DNA of 64,000 nt from Desulfobotulus alkaliphilus (GTDB taxonomy: Bacteria > Desulfobacterota > Desulfobacteria > Desulfobacterales > ASO4-4). The stretch's first letter is position 1. Every line of letters begins with the position of its first letter. This document shows positions 4,745 through 15,026 of this stretch, one piece after another. Location of the stretch: positions 2,783 through 66,782 of the forward strand of contig NZ_VLLC01000013.1 in the NCBI RefSeq assembly GCF_007830435.1, read 5' to 3'. A program made the translations under genes and the position numbers. The notes beneath the pieces were generated by a model, which was not told where the DNA came from, did no database searches, and saw only the letters and a list, made by a program, of their open reading frames with translations.

Positions 4745-5081
4745 GTAACAGTTTTTCAAGTACCATACCTGCAAGACAGATGCACAGGCTCCAGGCTATT
4801 TGCCCGTGACGCAATCTTATTCGGGAGCTTCTTGCCCTGTGCGGAAGCGGCAAAAACTCCCCGCCACAGGCAGGATAAGCTTTTTGATTACCATAGCAGG
4901 CCTAAGTACGCTGCCTTTGTGGCGGCTCAGACAGTTTGCCGCTTCTTTCGCACAGGCCTGCAAAGCTCTGATCCGAAACGATTGCAATGTCACTTTCAAA
5001 TAGCCTTGGAGCCTTGCAACAGTACGAAGCTGCTGCAATGACAGCATTGGCAGTTCGAAATAAATTGTGCTGAATAATTAC
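4745..5081 (+). mobile_element. Palindromic MITE-like element, copy 1
   Basis: A non-coding element of 337 bp starting GTAAC and ending GAATAATTAC, flanked by a perfect 8-bp direct repeat TCAAATAA (4737-4744 and 5082-5089). It is an extended imperfect palindrome: GGCTATTTGCCCGTGAC near the left end is mirrored by GTCACTTTCAAATAGCC near the right, and CCGCCACAGGCAGG by GCTGCCTTTGTGGCGG near the centre. Compared with copies at 12075 and 13475 it lacks about 10 bp (TGTTCAGCAC) of the left terminal repeat. Short open frames inside it recur in every copy only because the DNA is repeated. Confidence 0.85.
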
Positions 5082-5092
5082 TCAAATAATTA

Positions 5093-5245
5093 CACGGGCA
5101 CCCGTAAAGGGTGCCCCTACACAAAACAGGGCTGTAAAAACCATTCGTAGGGGCAGGCCTTGCGCCTGCCCGTATCAAAGCCCGCACCATAGGTCTGGTC
5201 ACAGCCTGACCAGCAAGCTGTGGCTGGGTCAGGGTAGTAAGCAGA
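5093..5245 (+). repeat. Intergenic hairpin repeat (family 2), copy A
   Basis: A block of about 153 bp that recurs inverted at 10499-10652. It contains three hairpins: GGGCACCC/GGGTGCCC (5096-5116), GGGCAGGC/GCCTGCCC (5151-5171), and CTGGTCA/TGACCAG. It abuts the stop codon of the NRDE gene (stop at 5246-5248 on the minus strand), so it could also act as a 3' transcript end for that gene. The motif GTAGGGGCAGGCCTTGCGCC is typical of dispersed extragenic repeats known from many genomes. Confidence 0.8.
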
Positions 5246-7827: not shown

Positions 7828-10326
7828 ATGACCGATACAGATTTGGGTGCGGAGATCAGCATCGAGACAGAGATGCGGCAGTCCTACCTTGAGTACGCCA
7901 TGAGCGTGATCATTGGCCGGGCCCTGCCGGATGTGCGGGACGGTCTGAAACCTGTGCATCGTCGTGTTCTTTTTGCCATGCGGGAACTTAAAAACGACTG
8001 GAACCGCCCCTACAAAAAGTCTGCGCGTATCGTGGGGGATGTGATTGGTAAATACCATCCCCATGGTGATACGGCAGTTTATGACACCATTGTCCGCATG
8101 GCCCAGGATTTTTCCATGCGTTATCCTTTGGTGGACGGGCAGGGAAACTTCGGCTCCATTGATGGAGATTCACCGGCTGCCATGCGTTATACGGAAATCC
8201 GCATGCAGCGTCTGGCCCAGGAGATGCTGGCGGATCTTGATAAGGAAACCGTCGAGTTCATCACAAACTATGATGAGTCCCTGGAAGAGCCCCTGGTGCT
8301 GCCCACCCGTCTTCCGGCACTTCTGGTGAATGGTTCTTCCGGTATTGCCGTGGGCATGGCCACCAATATTCCTCCCCACAATCTCAGGGAGGTGGCGGAT
8401 GCCATCATTGCGGTCATCGACAATCCGGATATTGATGTCACTGAGCTTATCTCCATACTGCCGGGGCCGGATTTTCCCACGGGCGGGATCATTTACGGAA
8501 AATCCGGTATCGTGGAAGCCTACCGGACCGGTCGGGGAATCATACGGCTACGGGCGCTTCTGGATCTGGAGACCGATGCAAAAAACAATGAGATCCTTGT
8601 GGTCAAGGAGCTGCCCTATCAGGTAAATAAGGCCCGTCTGGTGAAAGCCATTTCAGACATGGTCCGGGACAAACAGCTGGAGGGTATCAGCTATGTCCGG
8701 GATGAGTCGGACAGGGATGGCCTGCGCATTGCCATAGGCCTTAAAAAAGATGCCATGCACGAGGTGGTTTCCAACCAGCTTTTCAAGCATACCCAGCTTC
8801 AGAACAGTTTTGGCATTATTTTCCTTGCCGTGGTGAACAACCGGCCGGAAGTTCTTACCCTTAAAGAGATTCTCACCCACTTTATCCGTCACAGAAAAGA
8901 AGTGATTATCCGGCGTACCCGCTATGATCTGAAAAGGGCGCAGGCAAGGGCACACATTCTTGAAGGCCTCAAAATTGCTCTGGACAATATTGATGAGGTG
9001 GTGGCCCTGATCCGCAAGTCCTCTTCTCCTGTGGAGGCCAAGGACGGCCTGATGGCCCGCTTTGGTCTTTCCGCACTGCAGGCTCAGGCCATTCTTGACA
9101 TGCGGTTGCAGAGACTGACGGGGCTTGAACGGGACCGTATTCTTGAAGAATATGATGCGATTATGAAAGACATTGCCTGGTTCAAGGAAATTTTAGGCAG
9201 CGAAGCCATTGTCATGGATCTGATCAAAGAAGAGCTTGTCACCCTTAAAGAGGAGTTCGGAGACAGCCGACGTACGGAAATTGTGGAATCCACCCGGGAA
9301 ATCGGCATGGAGGACCTCATTGCCGAAGAAGACATGGTGGTAACCCTCACCCGCACCGGATACATCAAGCGCAATCCCATTACCCTGTACCAGAGCCAGC
9401 GCCGTGGCGGCAGAGGCAAGACGGCCATGACCACCCGGGATGAGGATTTTGTCACAAAGCTCTTTGTGGCTTCCACCCACCATACCTTCCTTTTCTTTAC
9501 CAACCTCGGCAAGGTTTACTGGTCCAAGGTCTGGGAACTTCCCCAGGGCGGCAGGACCAGCCGGGGCAAAGCCATTGTGAATTTTCTGGATCTGGCTCCG
9601 GATGAAAAACTGAGTACGGTTCTGGCTGTGCCGGATTTTGAGGAGGGCCGCTACATCCTCATGGCAACACGGCAGGGGCTTGTGAAGAAAACGGATCTCA
9701 TGGCCTATTCCAGACCCCGGGCCGGAGGAATCATTGCCATTGATCTTGTGGAAGGGGATGCCCTCATTGCCGCAAGGATCACCGATGGCAGCAAGGAGGT
9801 TCTGCTGACTTCCGCCGTGGGGCAGACCATCCGTTTTGCCGAGTCGGACGTGCGTCCCATGGGCAGGGTTTCCCGGGGGGTCCGGGGCCTGCGTATGGCA
9901 GAAGATGATTACATTGTTGGCATGGAAGTTACAGGCCATGGAAGCACCCTGTTCACGGCCACGGAAAATGGTTATGGCAAAAGAACAGAGGTGGAAGCCT
10001 TCCCCATGCAGCGCCGGGGTGGTAAGGGGGTGATTGGTATCCGTACCGATGGCCGCAATGGCAAGGTGGTGGCCATGGTACTTACGGATGAGTCCGATGA
10101 CGTGATGCTGGTTTCCGACAAGGGGCGTCTGATCCGCATGTCCGCATGCAGTATTTCCGTCATTGGCCGTGCCACCCAGGGAGTCCGGCTGATTCAGCTG
10201 GAAGAAGCAGAACGGCTCATCGATGCCGCAAGGCTGGATGAGGAGGCGCAGGATGATGGGGATACCCTTAACGGAGAAGGGGATGGCGGTGAATGTGTGC
10301 CTGTGGATCTGGATCAGGATGAATAA
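7828..10326 (+). CDS. gyrA: DNA gyrase subunit A
   Basis: The breakage-reunion subunit of gyrase, 832 aa, which with GyrB introduces negative supercoils. The catalytic tyrosine is Tyr121 in [10 protein letters not shown]. The GyrA box QRRGGRG (about 524-530), needed for DNA wrapping, separates it from ParC, and the C-terminal beta-pinwheel repeats follow. In the quinolone region the residue matching E. coli Ser83 is Thr82 ([10 protein letters not shown]) and Asp86 is kept. The ATG at 7828 has AGGA 7 nt upstream; a TTG at 7777 in the same frame lacks a site. The tail is acidic. gyrB is not adjacent. Confidence 0.95.
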
Positions 10327-10382
10327 GGTCTGTTGGAGTATATCCTGCTCATGTTTGTTAATGCCTTAAACCTGAGAAAAAA

Positions 10383-10878
10383 GTAACTGCTCAGCATAGT
10401 TTTCCAGGTACCATACCTGCAAGGCAGATGCACAGGCCCCAGGCTATTTGCCCGTGACGCAATCCGGCACTCAAGCTGTGAAAAAGCTTATTATTTTTTC
10501 TGATTACTACCCTGACTCAGACACAGCTTGCTGGTCAGGTTGTTGCCAGGCCTATGGTGCGGGCTTTTAATACGGGCAGGCGCAAGGCCTGCCCCTACGA
10601 AAGGTTTTTAAGGCCCTGTTTTGTGTAGGGGCACCCTTTACGGGTGCCCGCGAACATGCTTAAAATCTGGTCATATAATTTCCATGATTAAGGTTTGTAT
10701 GGCTGAAAGATAGTGGTAATCAGATTATTTTTATAGCAGCCTTTAGGTTTTTGGCTTGAGTGCCGGAATCCGAAACGATTGCAATGTCACTTGCAAATAG
10801 CCAAGGTGCCTTGCAATAGTACGAAGCTGTTGCAATTACAGTATTGGCAGTTCGGAAAAAACTGTTCTGAATACTTAC
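10383..10878 (+). mobile_element. Palindromic MITE-like element, copy 2 (different core)
   Basis: A 496-bp element with the same ends as the other copies: left GTAACTGCTCAGCATAG, right CTGTTCTGAATACTTAC. It is flanked by a perfect 8-bp direct repeat AGAAAAAA (10375-10382 and 10879-10886). About 90 bp at the left end and 130 bp at the right match copies 1, 3 and 4. The middle is instead bounded by CCGGCACTCAAGC and its inverse GCTTGAGTGCCGG and contains repeat family 2. It ends 25 bp before the gpsA start codon and fills almost all of the gyrA-gpsA gap. Confidence 0.85.
10499..10652 (-). repeat. Intergenic hairpin repeat (family 2), copy B, inside MITE copy 2
   Basis: This is the reverse complement of 5093-5245 with scattered differences. 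It includes the paired blocks GGGCAGGC/GCCTGCCC and GGGCACCC/GGGTGCCC. Its position within a MITE that carries its own target duplication shows that the composite moved as one unit, or that one repeat entered the other. Confidence 0.8.
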
Positions 10879-10903
10879 AGAAAAAATATCTAAGGGTGGA
10901 CGT

Positions 10904-11938
10904 ATGCCACAAGGGAAAAAAGCAGATTTTCAGATAGGGGTGCTGGGGGGCGGTAGCTGGGGAACGGCTCTGGCCATGCTTCTTGCGGATAAGGGGTATC
11001 CTGTCAGGCTTTGGGTCCATGAGCCGGAAGTGGCCATGGAAATTAGGGAATACAGGGAAAACAGAACCTATCTTCCGGGGATTATGCTGCCGGAAAACCT
11101 TGTGGCCACACAGGATATGGAAGAGGCCCTGAAGGGTAAGGATCTGGTGCTTTTTGTGGTGCCCTCCCATGTGATGCGGGAGACAGCACGCAGGGCCGCA
11201 GCCATGATTTCAGAAAAATCCATCCTTGTGACGGCATCCAAGGGTATTGAAAATGTCACCCACAAAACCATGACGGGGATTCTTAAGGAAGAGATCCTGC
11301 AAATTCCCGAAGAAAAGATGGCAGTGCTTTCCGGTCCCAGTTTTGCCCGTGAGGTGGGGGAAAAAAGGCCCACGGTGGTGACGGTGGCTTCCAAAGCGGC
11401 CAGCAATGCCCGTAAGGTTCAGGAAATATTTGCCAGTCCGGTTTTTCGGGTTTATACGAGCGATGATGTCATGGGCGTTGAGGTGGGCGGGGCCATGAAA
11501 AATGTCATTGCCATTGCCGCAGGTGTTGCCGATGGCATGGGACTGGGCCTGAATACAAGGGCAGCTCTGATTACCCGGGGGCTGGCGGAAATCCGGCGGC
11601 TGGGTGTGGCCATGGGAGCCAATCCCCATACCTTTTCCGGTCTTTCCGGTGTGGGAGATCTCATGCTGACCTGTACCGGTGCCTTGAGCCGGAACCACAC
11701 CGTAGGTCAGCTCCTTGGACAGGGAAAGTCCCTGGATGAGATCCTCAAGGAAATGCGCATGGTGGCGGAAGGGGTGAAATCTGCCCGTTCCGTGTATAAC
11801 CTTTCGGCAAAGCTTGGTGTGGAGCTGCCCATATGCAATGAGGTGTACCGGGTGCTTTACGAGGGCAGCACACCCCGTGAGGCCGGAGAGCGCCTGATGA
11901 ACCGGACCCTGAAACAGGAATTCCATGATCTTGTCTGA
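10904..11938 (+). CDS. gpsA: Glycerol-3-phosphate dehydrogenase [NAD(P)+]
   Basis: Reduces dihydroxyacetone phosphate to sn-glycerol 3-phosphate, the backbone for phospholipids; cytosolic. The 344-aa protein has an N-terminal Rossmann motif GVLGGGSWGTA (residues 12-22), the catalytic lysine Lys199 in GGAMKNV, and the family motif GLGLNTRAALITRGL. The ribosome-binding site AAGGGTGG lies 4 nt before the ATG, in the short segment between MITE copy 2 and the gene. Confidence 0.95.
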   Translation: MPQGKKADFQIGVLGGGSWGTALAMLLADKGYPVRLWVHEPEVAMEIREYRENRTYLPGIMLPENLVATQDMEEALKGKDLVLFVVPSHVMRETARRAAAMISEKSILVTASKGIENVTHKTMTGILKEEILQIPEEKMAVLSGPSFAREVGEKRPTVVTVASKAASNARKVQEIFASPVFRVYTSDDVMGVEVGGAMKNVIAIAAGVADGMGLGLNTRAALITRGLAEIRRLGVAMGANPHTFSGLSGVGDLMLTCTGALSRNHTVGQLLGQGKSLDEILKEMRMVAEGVKSARSVYNLSAKLGVELPICNEVYRVLYEGSTPREAGERLMNRTLKQEFHDLV

Positions 11939-12074: not shown

Positions 12075-12425
12075 GCTGCTGTTCAGCACAGTTTATTCCG
12101 AACTGCCAATGCTGTAGTTGCAGCAGCTTCGTACTGTTGCATGCAAGGCACCTTGGCTATTTGCAAGTGACATTGCAATCGTTTCGGATCAGAGCTTTGC
12201 AGGCCTGTGCGAAAGAAGCGGCAAACTGTCTGAGCCGCCACAAAGGCAGCGTGCTTAAGCCTGCCATGGTAATCAAAAAGCTTATCCTGCCTGTGGCGGG
12301 GAGTTTTTGCCGCTTCCGCACAGGGCAAGAAGCTCCCGAATAAGATTGCGTCACGGGCAAATAGCCTAGGGCCTGTGCATTAGTCTTGCAGGTATGGTAT
12401 CTGGAAAACTGTGCTGAAAAATTAC
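12075..12425 (-). mobile_element. Palindromic MITE-like element, copy 3 (inverted)
   Basis: A roughly 351-bp copy of the same family as 4745-5081 and 13475-13821, in the opposite orientation. Its rightmost end (on + strand CTGTGCTGAAAAATTAC) is intact. Its left end keeps TTCAGCACAG, but the outermost GTAAT is degraded to GCTGC and no target duplication is recognisable. The central palindrome GCTGCC...GTGGCGG / CCGCCACAGGCAGG pattern is present. It ends 22 bp before the radC start codon. Confidence 0.82.
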
Positions 12426-12447
12426 GTCTGGACTTGAAAGGCGGGGT

Positions 12448-13191
12448 ATGGATGAAAAATCCACCCAGGAGGGGCATCGAAGGCGGCTTCGTCAGCGTTT
12501 CCGTGAATCCGGTCTGGCCGGTTTTCAGGATCATGAAGTGCTGGAGCTGCTGCTGACCCTGTCAACCCCCCGAAAAGACTGTAAGGGGATGGCCTGGGAA
12601 CTTCTCAACCAGTTTAAAACCCTTCCTGCTGTTTTTGAGGCGGGCTTTGCAGATCTCTGTGCCGTTAAAGGGATAGGGGAGACCAATGCCATTCCCATCA
12701 AGCTGGTGAAGGCGGCTGCGGACCGTTTTCTGAAGCAGCGTATCAAGGGCAGGGAAGTTCTTGGGACACCTCAGGCGGTGCTGGATTATCTTTACCTTGA
12801 GCTGAGGGAAAGCAGCAGAGAAGTTTTCATGGTGATGTTTCTGGATGTGAAAAACCGCCTGCTGGAAACGGAAAAACTTTTTCAGGGCAGCCTCTCGGCC
12901 AGTCCGGTCTATCCCAGAGAAGTGCTGCGTTCGGTGCTGGCCCATCAGGCGGCTTCCGTGATTCTGGTCCATAATCACCCCTCCGGCGATACGGAGCCTT
13001 CAAGGGAGGACTACGCCATCACAAGGCGTCTGGTGCATACCCTTGCCCCTGTGAATGTAACGGTGCATGAGCACCTGATCATCGGGAGCAACAGGCACTA
13101 CAGCTTTGCCGAACAGGGAGTGATACGGGCCATGTATGAAGAGGTGCGTCAGGCGGAATCCAGATTCATGCAGGAGTGGGCACCAGGATGA
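12448..13191 (+). CDS. radC: RadC family protein (JAB1/MPN domain)
   Basis: A 247-aa RadC-type protein. An N-terminal helix-hairpin-helix region (AVKGIGETNAIPIK, about residues 69-82) precedes a JAMM metalloprotease-like domain with His175-x-His177 and Asp188 in HNHPSGDTEPSRED. The name reflects an old repair phenotype; the molecular function is unproven. The ribosome-binding site AAAGGCGGGG directly precedes ATG 12448. Its stop overlaps the next gene's start (ATGA), so the two are translationally coupled. Confidence 0.9.
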   Translation: MDEKSTQEGHRRRLRQRFRESGLAGFQDHEVLELLLTLSTPRKDCKGMAWELLNQFKTLPAVFEAGFADLCAVKGIGETNAIPIKLVKAAADRFLKQRIKGREVLGTPQAVLDYLYLELRESSREVFMVMFLDVKNRLLETEKLFQGSLSASPVYPREVLRSVLAHQAASVILVHNHPSGDTEPSREDYAITRRLVHTLAPVNVTVHEHLIIGSNRHYSFAEQGVIRAMYEEVRQAESRFMQEWAPG

Positions 13192-13474: not shown

Positions 13475-13821
13475 GTAACTGTTCAGCACAGTTTTCCAAA
13501 ACTATTCCTGCCAGACAGATGCACAGGCCCCAGGCTATTTGCCCGTGACGCAATCTTATTCGGGAGCTTCTTGCCCTGTGCGGAAGCGGAAAAAACCCCC
13601 CGCCACAGGCAGGATAAACTTTTTGATTACCATGGTAGGCTTCAGCACGCTGCCTTTGTGGCGGCTCAGACAGTTTGCCGCTTCTTTCGCACAGGCCTGC
13701 GAAGCTCTGATCCGAAACGATTGCAATGTCACTTGCAAATAGCCACGGAGCCTTGCATAAAGTACGAAGCTGCTGCAATTTCAGCATTGGCAGCTCGGAA
13801 TAAACTGTGCTGAATAATTAC
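13475..13821 (+). mobile_element. Palindromic MITE-like element, copy 4
   Basis: A 347-bp element, the best-preserved copy. Terminal inverted repeats: left GTAACTGTTCAGCACAGTTT, right end the inverse of GTAATTATTCAGCACAGTTT (17 of 20 identical). Inner arms GGCTATTTGCCCGTGAC (from 13533) and GTCACTTGCAAATAGCC (to 13744) pair, as do the central CCGCCAC and GTGGCGG blocks. Flanks AAAATTTA and AAATTTTA match in 7 of 8 positions, a likely aged target duplication. It ends 26 bp before the pgk start codon. Confidence 0.87.
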
Positions 13822-13847
13822 AAATTTTATAAACAGGGGGAAGGCTT

Positions 13848-15026
13848 GTGAAGGGGATTGTGGATCTGCCGCTGGCGGGAAAACGGGTGCTGATACGCGT
13901 GGACTTTAATGTGCCCATGGACAGAAACGGGAATATTGCTGAAGATACCCGTATCCGGCGGGGTATGGAAAGTATCCGTTTTGCAGCGGATTCCGGAGCA
14001 AGGGTGATTGTGGCATCCCACCTTGGAAGGCCCAGGGGACAGATTGTGCCGGGCCTGAGTCTCAAACCTGCGGCGGATCACCTTGCAGCCCTCCTTGACA
14101 GGCCGGTGAGAATGATCGGGGATTCCATAGGCCCTGATGTCAAAAAAGCGGTAGAGGGGCTTGCTGCCGGTGACATTCTCATGTTGGAGAATCTGCGTTT
14201 TTACCCCGAAGAGCAGGCCAATGATGAAGATTTTGCCAGACAGCTTGCGGATCTCTGTGATGTTTACATTAACAATGCATTTGCCGTATCCCACAGAAAA
14301 CATGCCTCGGTCCATGCCATATGCACCTTTGTAAAGGAAAAGGCTGCGGGTCATCTCCTGATGGATGAGCTGAGGTATTTTGATTCTGCCATGGGCGCGC
14401 CTGCCCGCCCCCTTGTGGCCATTGTTGGGGGAGCAAAAATCTCCAGCAAGCTCAAGGCGCTGGAAAATCTGCTCCACAGGGTGGACAAGGTGCTGATTGG
14501 CGGAGCCATGGCCAATACATTTTTAAAGGCTTCCGGTCTTTTTGTGGGGGATTCTCTGGTTGAAGATGAGATGCTTCAGACGGCTGAGGCCGTCATGGCA
14601 GAAGCCAGAAAAAGGGGTGTCCGCTTCTATCTGCCCGTGGATGCCGTAGTAACAAAAGAAATTGCAGAGGATGCCGTTGGCATGGTGGTGCCCGTACAGG
14701 AAATTCCCGAGGGCTGGAAAGTGGCGGACTGCGGTCCTGCGACGGTGAGACTTTATGCGGCCGCCCTTGCCAATGCTAAAACTGTGGTATGGAATGGTCC
14801 CATGGGGGTTTTTGAAATGGAGCCCTTCAGTGGTGGGACCATGGGGCTGGCCCGGCACGTGGCCGCCTGCCACGGCCTGACCATTGTGGGGGGCGGGGAT
14901 ACGGATACGGCAATCCATAAGGCCGGGGTGGCATCGGCCATGGGATATATTTCCACGGGTGGTGGTGCTTTTCTGAAGCTGCTGGAGGGTGAGTCCCTCC
15001 CTGCTGTGGATGCGCTGGCATCCTGA
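13848..15026 (+). CDS. pgk: Phosphoglycerate kinase
   Basis: Transfers phosphate between 1,3-bisphosphoglycerate and ADP in glycolysis and gluconeogenesis. The 392-aa protein has the N-terminal substrate motif VLIRVDFNVPMD, the conserved HLGRPRG, and the C-terminal nucleotide-binding GGGDTDTAI and STGGGAFLKLLEG. It starts with GTG, with GGGGGAAGG just upstream; the only DNA between MITE copy 4 and the start is this 26-nt segment. No gap gene is adjacent. Confidence 0.95.
   Translation: MKGIVDLPLAGKRVLIRVDFNVPMDRNGNIAEDTRIRRGMESIRFAADSGARVIVASHLGRPRGQIVPGLSLKPAADHLAALLDRPVRMIGDSIGPDVKKAVEGLAAGDILMLENLRFYPEEQANDEDFARQLADLCDVYINNAFAVSHRKHASVHAICTFVKEKAAGHLLMDELRYFDSAMGAPARPLVAIVGGAKISSKLKALENLLHRVDKVLIGGAMANTFLKASGLFVGDSLVEDEMLQTAEAVMAEARKRGVRFYLPVDAVVTKEIAEDAVGMVVPVQEIPEGWKVADCGPATVRLYAAALANAKTVVWNGPMGVFEMEPFSGGTMGLARHVAACHGLTIVGGGDTDTAIHKAGVASAMGYISTGGGAFLKLLEGESLPAVDALAS

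Follow-up and report, generated by a model that had tools for sequence, protein, structure and literature searches.

Same sites, different interiors: a modular MITE family in Desulfobotulus alkaliphilus and its sister genomes

A composite MITE copy between gyrA and gpsA

The window, a stretch of 64,000 nucleotides of Desulfobotulus alkaliphilus DNA, holds four copies of a short repeat (Table 1). The second of them, here called the window copy, lies between two genes identified by eye as gyrA and gpsA. It is one of about 200 copies, in this genome (G000; 4.0 Mb, 95 contigs), of a MITE, a non-autonomous element whose ends are of the GTAAC type and whose target duplications are 8 bp long. The original prediction placed the ends and the perfect target duplication of this copy where they are found, and its description of a core bounded by a sequence and the exact inverse of that sequence holds as well, the two being 13-mers at 10464 and 10754. 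It was also right that only the outer parts are shared with other copies: the match to the window's other three copies covers about 67–83 bp on the left and 108–120 bp on the right. Those three have in common a core of about 154 bp (core A) that the window copy lacks. A 10-nt sequence, CAAAGCTCTG, which precedes ArmR in many copies, is absent from it too.

Table 1. MITE copies and their component parts in the window.
Feature	Coordinates	Strand	Remarks
MITE, window copy	10383–10878		start GTAACTGCTCAGC, end GAATACTTAC; flanked by a perfect 8-bp target duplication, AGAAAAAA
Left MITE target duplication	10375–10382	.	AGAAAAAA
ArmL	10383–10463	+	starts GTAACTGCTCAGCATAG
Left 13-mer of hairpin module R	10464–10476	+	CCGGCACTCAAGC
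Module loop, first part	10477–10498	+	last 8 bases (10491–10498, TTATTTTT) are the elC target duplication
Nested 226-bp element elC	10499–10724	+	ends TCTGATTAC/GTAATCAGA; two inverted GTAG-headed palindromes
Right elC target duplication	10725–10732	+	TTATTTTT
Module loop, remainder	10733–10753	+
Right 13-mer of module R	10754–10766	+	GCTTGAGTGCCGG, exact inverse of the left 13-mer
ArmR	10767–10878	+	ends GAATACTTAC
Right MITE target duplication	10879–10886	.	AGAAAAAA
MITE copy 1, ArmL–core A–ArmR	4745–5081	+	target duplication TCAAATAA on both sides
Partial elC adjoining copy 1	5095–5245	-	152 of 226 positions
MITE copy 3, ArmL–core A–ArmR	12082–12425	-	ArmR end degenerate; low coordinate is the BLAST limit
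MITE copy 4, ArmL–core A–ArmR	13475–13821	+	347 bp

The second repeat family that the prediction saw in the core is elC, which is 92% identical over 152 bp to the partial copy beside MITE copy 1. It is a separate nested insertion, with a duplication of its own, in the A/T-rich loop of the hairpin module. Nine end-bounded copies of elC were found in loci from three genomes, seven of them, the window copy included, with a perfect 8-bp duplication; at L133 a second elC sits inside a hairpin module with another duplication (AAATAATA), and no second case of elC at the same place as in the window copy was seen among the copies collected. REP and BIME sequences are not known to make a target duplication, and elC has one. 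GTAG-tagged REP/BIME sequences resemble elC, which has two inverted palindromes with GTAG at one end of each (PMC3733652); elC differs in its terminal repeats and 8-bp duplications, and thus behaves as a MITE carrying REP-like hairpins. A further feature of REP/BIME repeats is a link with a REP-associated tyrosine transposase; two Y1-type transposases are present in the genome.

Once elC is removed, the core of the window copy is a standard 69-bp hairpin. It can be aligned with 25 further module R sequences, and its predicted fold beats every one of 200 shuffles (z -7.1). The resulting ArmL–R–ArmR layout occurs in eight other groups of copies in the same genome (seven in a stricter count). The original prediction named as its refutation a core that is itself a simple insertion with its own target duplication, and for the elC part this is what was found; the rest of the core is the hairpin module. 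An RNA function was rejected, a search of Rfam with 10300–10950 having given no match at E values up to 1.

Three of the four window copies stop 22–26 bp upstream of a start codon (10878–10904, 12425–12448 and 13821–13848), the genes after copies 2–4 being, by eye, gpsA, radC and pgk. A link of copies to start codons was dropped: 191 element ends gave 54 starts versus 36 in the shuffled control, a mild excess, and 73 stop codons versus 60. The predicted fold of copy 4 is one long imperfect hairpin (z -9.1 versus shuffles).

A family with optional internal modules

With up to three mismatches, G000 has 195 sites for ArmL and 223 for ArmR (none for either reversed control) and 430 end-like sites versus 21 for the reversed control, as befits the terminal inverted repeats of a MITE. 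The 198 distinct copies collected, which are fewer than all the copies in the genome, include 172 with both arms; their mean length of 351 bp is too short for a transposase, in keeping with the short, many-copy character of MITEs. Target site duplication is equally clear, with perfect 8-bp repeats at 69 of 168 copies (0 of 168 in the shifted control) and, in the sister genome G002, at 14 of 89 (control 0 of 89).

The family is probably moved by an IS66-type transposase. Elements of the IS66 family start with GTAA and make an 8-bp target duplication, as does the MITE. A single IS66-type element is present in G000 (L208, on contig C66), bounded by GTAACTTCTCAATAAGTGTAGGCAT and its inverse; its end GTAACTTCTCAATAAGTG (with the inverse opposite) and the MITE end GTAACTGTTCAGCACAG have GTAACT and TCA in common and differ in the rest. 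An autonomous element with the end GTAACTGTTCAGCACAG was not encountered among the loci read in a PF03050 search.

The full form is ArmL–(module L)–(core A)–(module R)–ArmR, a BOX-like layout in which optional modules stand between conserved ends. When the copies were collected and sorted by interior, as the prediction had proposed, seven of the eight possible combinations appeared among the 156 complete (N-free, two-armed) G000 copies: A in 89, LAR in 29, no module in 10, AR in 8, L in 8, R in 7 and LA in 5. One "L" is the window copy, miscalled since elC mimics the module-L motif; an earlier parse and alignment A1 give R. The 89 G002 copies comprise 61 A, 12 none, 7 AR, 3 LA, 2 R, 2 L, 1 LAR and 1 AL, and the 13 copies of the second sister genome, G001, comprise 9 A, 2 none and 2 R by one automatic caller and 7 A, 2 none, 2 R, 1 AR and 1 LA by another. 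The earlier parse, with 155 groups, covered fewer loci than the set of 198 copies, in which duplicates were merged by flank. Copies with N runs (16 of 198 in G000, 1 of 100 in G002) were omitted from these counts. The automatic state callers conflict for some copies: one caller gives core A to L070, L300 and L315, whose printed sequences hold a core remnant only, and L274, called AL, is L as printed. The comparisons of orthologous copies below use the printed sequences. G002 also contains a divergent subfamily (L306, L307 and pattern matches) that has CTCACAAACAGCC in ArmR, core A in common and different outer arms.

The 13-mer that bounds the modules has 154 exact sites in G000 (78 plus, 76 minus; reversed control 0), and beyond the genus it is at the level of chance, with seven single matches in 55 genomes versus eight for the reversed control. 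The palindromic module pattern finds 100 modules in G000, counted on each strand, with 63–68 bp between the matched ends among the matches listed. In the copies printed, each module replaces a defined segment: module L takes the place of CTT in GCAAT[CTT]ATTCGGG, and module R that of 13 nt, TCGCACAGGCCTG, close to where core A ends on the right. One full copy is predicted to fold with the left 13-mer of module L paired to its counterpart at the right of module R, and both modules would thus lengthen a single long hairpin. Alignment A1 shows hardly any variation in the 13-bp stem of module R, and the interior of the module, about 43 nt, falls into several sequence types that differ strongly. 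Little covariation is seen in this module (26 sequences, 21 pairs, two with double changes, covariation term -0.84). The ArmL–R–ArmR junctions, as far as printed, fit a crossover in the 13-mers in six of the eight groups, those of L030 and L048 lying outside them.

Orthologous sites in the sister genomes

Thirty G000 sites were matched in G002 by their flanks, four of them (L102, L137, L150 and L041) without a called element and 26 occupied; most G002 loci were picked by the ArmR pattern, so empty sites are under-sampled in these figures. Judged from the printed sequences, the module state differs at 15 occupied sites, agrees at nine and is unclear at two (L330, with one arm only, and L345, with two overlapping G002 calls); L070 is truncated in G000. 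The element stands in opposite orientation at nine of the 26. At L337/L295 the interior is reversed and the outer 20 nt at both ends are identical, staying with near-identical flanks in which, among the bases shown, one base differs on either side.

A comparison of the outer arms was used to exclude repeat insertions. Against a background similarity of median 0.754 (19292 pairs), the partner at the same site is the closest copy by outer arms, none of the 100 G002 copies being closer, at 14 of the 26 sites, which speaks for common descent there, and the best match is reciprocal at 10. The 14 sites, in which the N-containing L321 and L334 are retained and marked, include three of the nine orientation differences (L168, L011 and L337). 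Their state agrees at four (L076, L132, L334 with N, L011) and differs at ten (L151, L167, L168, L186, the window copy, L059, L312, L315, L321 with N, L337). Deletion alone accounts for L312 and L321; the other eight need a template. The reciprocal sites comprise the same number of agreements, four, and six differences (L151, L186, L059, L315, L321 and L337), the reverse ranking having failed, besides the window copy, for L167 (7th), L168 (27th) and L312 (6th of 198). L312 and its partner L300 have near-identical left arms and both carry module L, in different sequences. The view that palindromic modules are exchanged between copies, and that simple decay is not the explanation, is thus supported, eight of the ten differing arm-supported sites going beyond deletion.

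A rival account is that hot spots were hit twice, with different forms of the MITE inserting separately in the two species, and three sites may have this history: arms are unlike in L148/L306, L187/L307 and L345/L294, with shifted element positions in L148 and L345. The arm rank is also not 1 at several others, including L070, L138, L169 and L182, where the state differs. As a general account, double insertion is nonetheless decidedly unlikely, since the partner is closest at 14 of 26 sites and in both directions at 10, L182 and L274 have a truncation in common, and rare bases are shared near exchanged modules. The last point is best seen in L186 (LAR) and L259 (A), which share family-rare bases (<12%) at reference positions 43, 93, 143, 144, 146 and 232, among others. 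These bracket module L at about 38 nt on the left and 9 nt on the right, and module R at about 68 and 5 nt. The module changes are therefore confined to short stretches, and core A in the middle has remained orthologous; L186 and L259 do differ at 168–173 and at other single positions.

The same pair bears on the possibility of an assembly artefact, in which the interior of a MITE was filled with sequence from another copy during short-read assembly. N runs in 16 of 198 G000 copies would agree with such an artefact, as would the closeness of some copies to a contig end (about 110 bases at most; C5, C32, C33, C39), but N occurs in just one of 100 G002 copies, the two assemblies agree on the rare bases in core A of L186/L259, and the modules at the best sites are singletons, which together make an artefact very improbable. 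The modules of L186, L059, L218, L315 and the window copy each occur once among the parsed 94 G000 or 21 G002 modules; such private modules are weak evidence, because singletons are the norm (63 of 94 in G000).

At the gyrA–gpsA site itself, no element was seen in G001. G002 has a MITE after the same GAGAAAAAA, with AGAAAAAC on the right side and another interior, in which ...GCACAGGCC is joined directly to TGCAAAGCTCTGATCC..., a deletion between 9-bp direct repeats. Judged by this junction, the G002 copy is a derivative of a core-A form without module R; the window copy has module R, and neither form can be obtained from the other by deletion. Their arm similarity of 0.906 is reached by 4.9% of background pairs, and the arm rank is 1 of 100 from the G000 side and 34 of 198 from the G002 side, so that the putative common descent of the two copies is supported chiefly by the shared site and duplication, together with the GAATACTTAC end, present in about 5% of copies. 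In three different G002 loci (L242, L251 and L267) a deletion between GCACAGGCC repeats starts and stops at identical points, and this deletion seems to recur.

Probable origin and meaning of the differing interiors

Taken together, the observations are probably best read as old insertions whose interiors have been swapped by ectopic gene conversion, trimmed by deletion between direct repeats and flipped via the terminal repeats. At the window site, the MITE would have inserted between gyrA and gpsA, with its 8-bp duplication, probably before the split from the G002 lineage; another copy would then have donated module R in place of the old interior by ectopic gene conversion, whether or not accompanied by deletion between 13-mer direct repeats, and elC would have entered the A/T-rich loop last. 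Family-wide, conversion among the roughly 200 copies, deletion between short direct repeats and inversion between end repeats would have acted together. The anatomy, the two target duplications, the module states, the differing interiors of orthologous copies and the in-place inversions are seen directly; the transposase, the direction of change at this site and gene conversion as the route, the most likely one beside other templated repair, are inferred, and no donor for the exchanged modules was identified among the copies collected.

The original prediction favoured another history, in which template switching at a cruciform gave rise to the composite and the whole then moved as a unit. The perfect outer duplication invites this view, and the long predicted hairpins and the in-place inversions are both compatible with it. 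An outer duplication is no proof of joint movement, however, because a target duplication survives later internal change. Movement as one unit is not supported: elC has its own duplication, none of the other copies collected carries elC at that place (the L133 duplication differs), and the G002 insertion at the same base has another interior, apparently from a core-A form without module R. Moreover, a purely local switch at a cruciform supplies no intermolecular donor, which is required when one copy gains a module from another, and recombination between terminal repeats, reported for bacterial IS elements (PMC3004938), leads to identical products. Template switching followed by unit transposition is accordingly highly unlikely. 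Independent mobility of the hairpin modules, which would insert at two fixed targets inside the MITE, is suggested by their 13-bp inverted ends and by their recurrent variation between present and absent at two constant positions, and can hardly be the case given that none was found outside the MITE family among the loci compared, that no flanking target duplication was seen, and that CTT or 13 nt are replaced in the copies printed. A bolder extension of the gene-conversion reading is that the 69-bp modules are parasites of the MITE population, spreading by conversion at occupied sites rather than by transposition, with hairpin-driven strand switching as the engine and in-place cassette exchange as the way in which the family evolves; this is conceivable, though we think it doubtful.

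Modular bacterial repeats and inversions through terminal repeats are already in print (PMC3049150, PMC2229807, PMC3004938). The short BOX element of Streptococcus pneumoniae (boxA–boxB(n)–boxC) likewise keeps its ends conserved and its middle modules optional, and the number of these modules varies between strains at orthologous insertions; what varies there is the tandem copy number of boxB (PMC3049150), whereas the MITE has three cassettes at fixed positions that vary singly. Module R moreover comes in several diverged sequence types, and the likeness to BOX is one of layout. The Correia/NEMIS repeats of Neisseria similarly come in a longer and a shorter class, the difference being an internal segment, but they have one such segment where the MITE has three cassettes, and in-place change at orthologous sites goes unmentioned in the part of the source used (PMC2229807). 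In Wolbachia, inversion by recombination between terminal inverted repeats affected 9% of the IS loci investigated, and elements were turned over through their terminal repeats as here; those IS are autonomous, and the relevant part of that account makes no mention of internal-module exchange (PMC3004938). Among the literature matches listed, at the level of titles and abstract openings and with few subscription journals, there was no account of orthologous sites at which dispersed copies of a bacterial MITE exchange internal cassettes, a weak negative result.

The usual dating and grouping of MITEs treats the interior as a record of the history of transposition. In this family, the outer ends and the interior at the same site seem to have different histories. 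With about 200 copies in G000 and about 100 in its sister, the rate and the tract length of ectopic conversion between very short repeats become measurable, and the same copies also show inversion through terminal repeats in natural bacteria.
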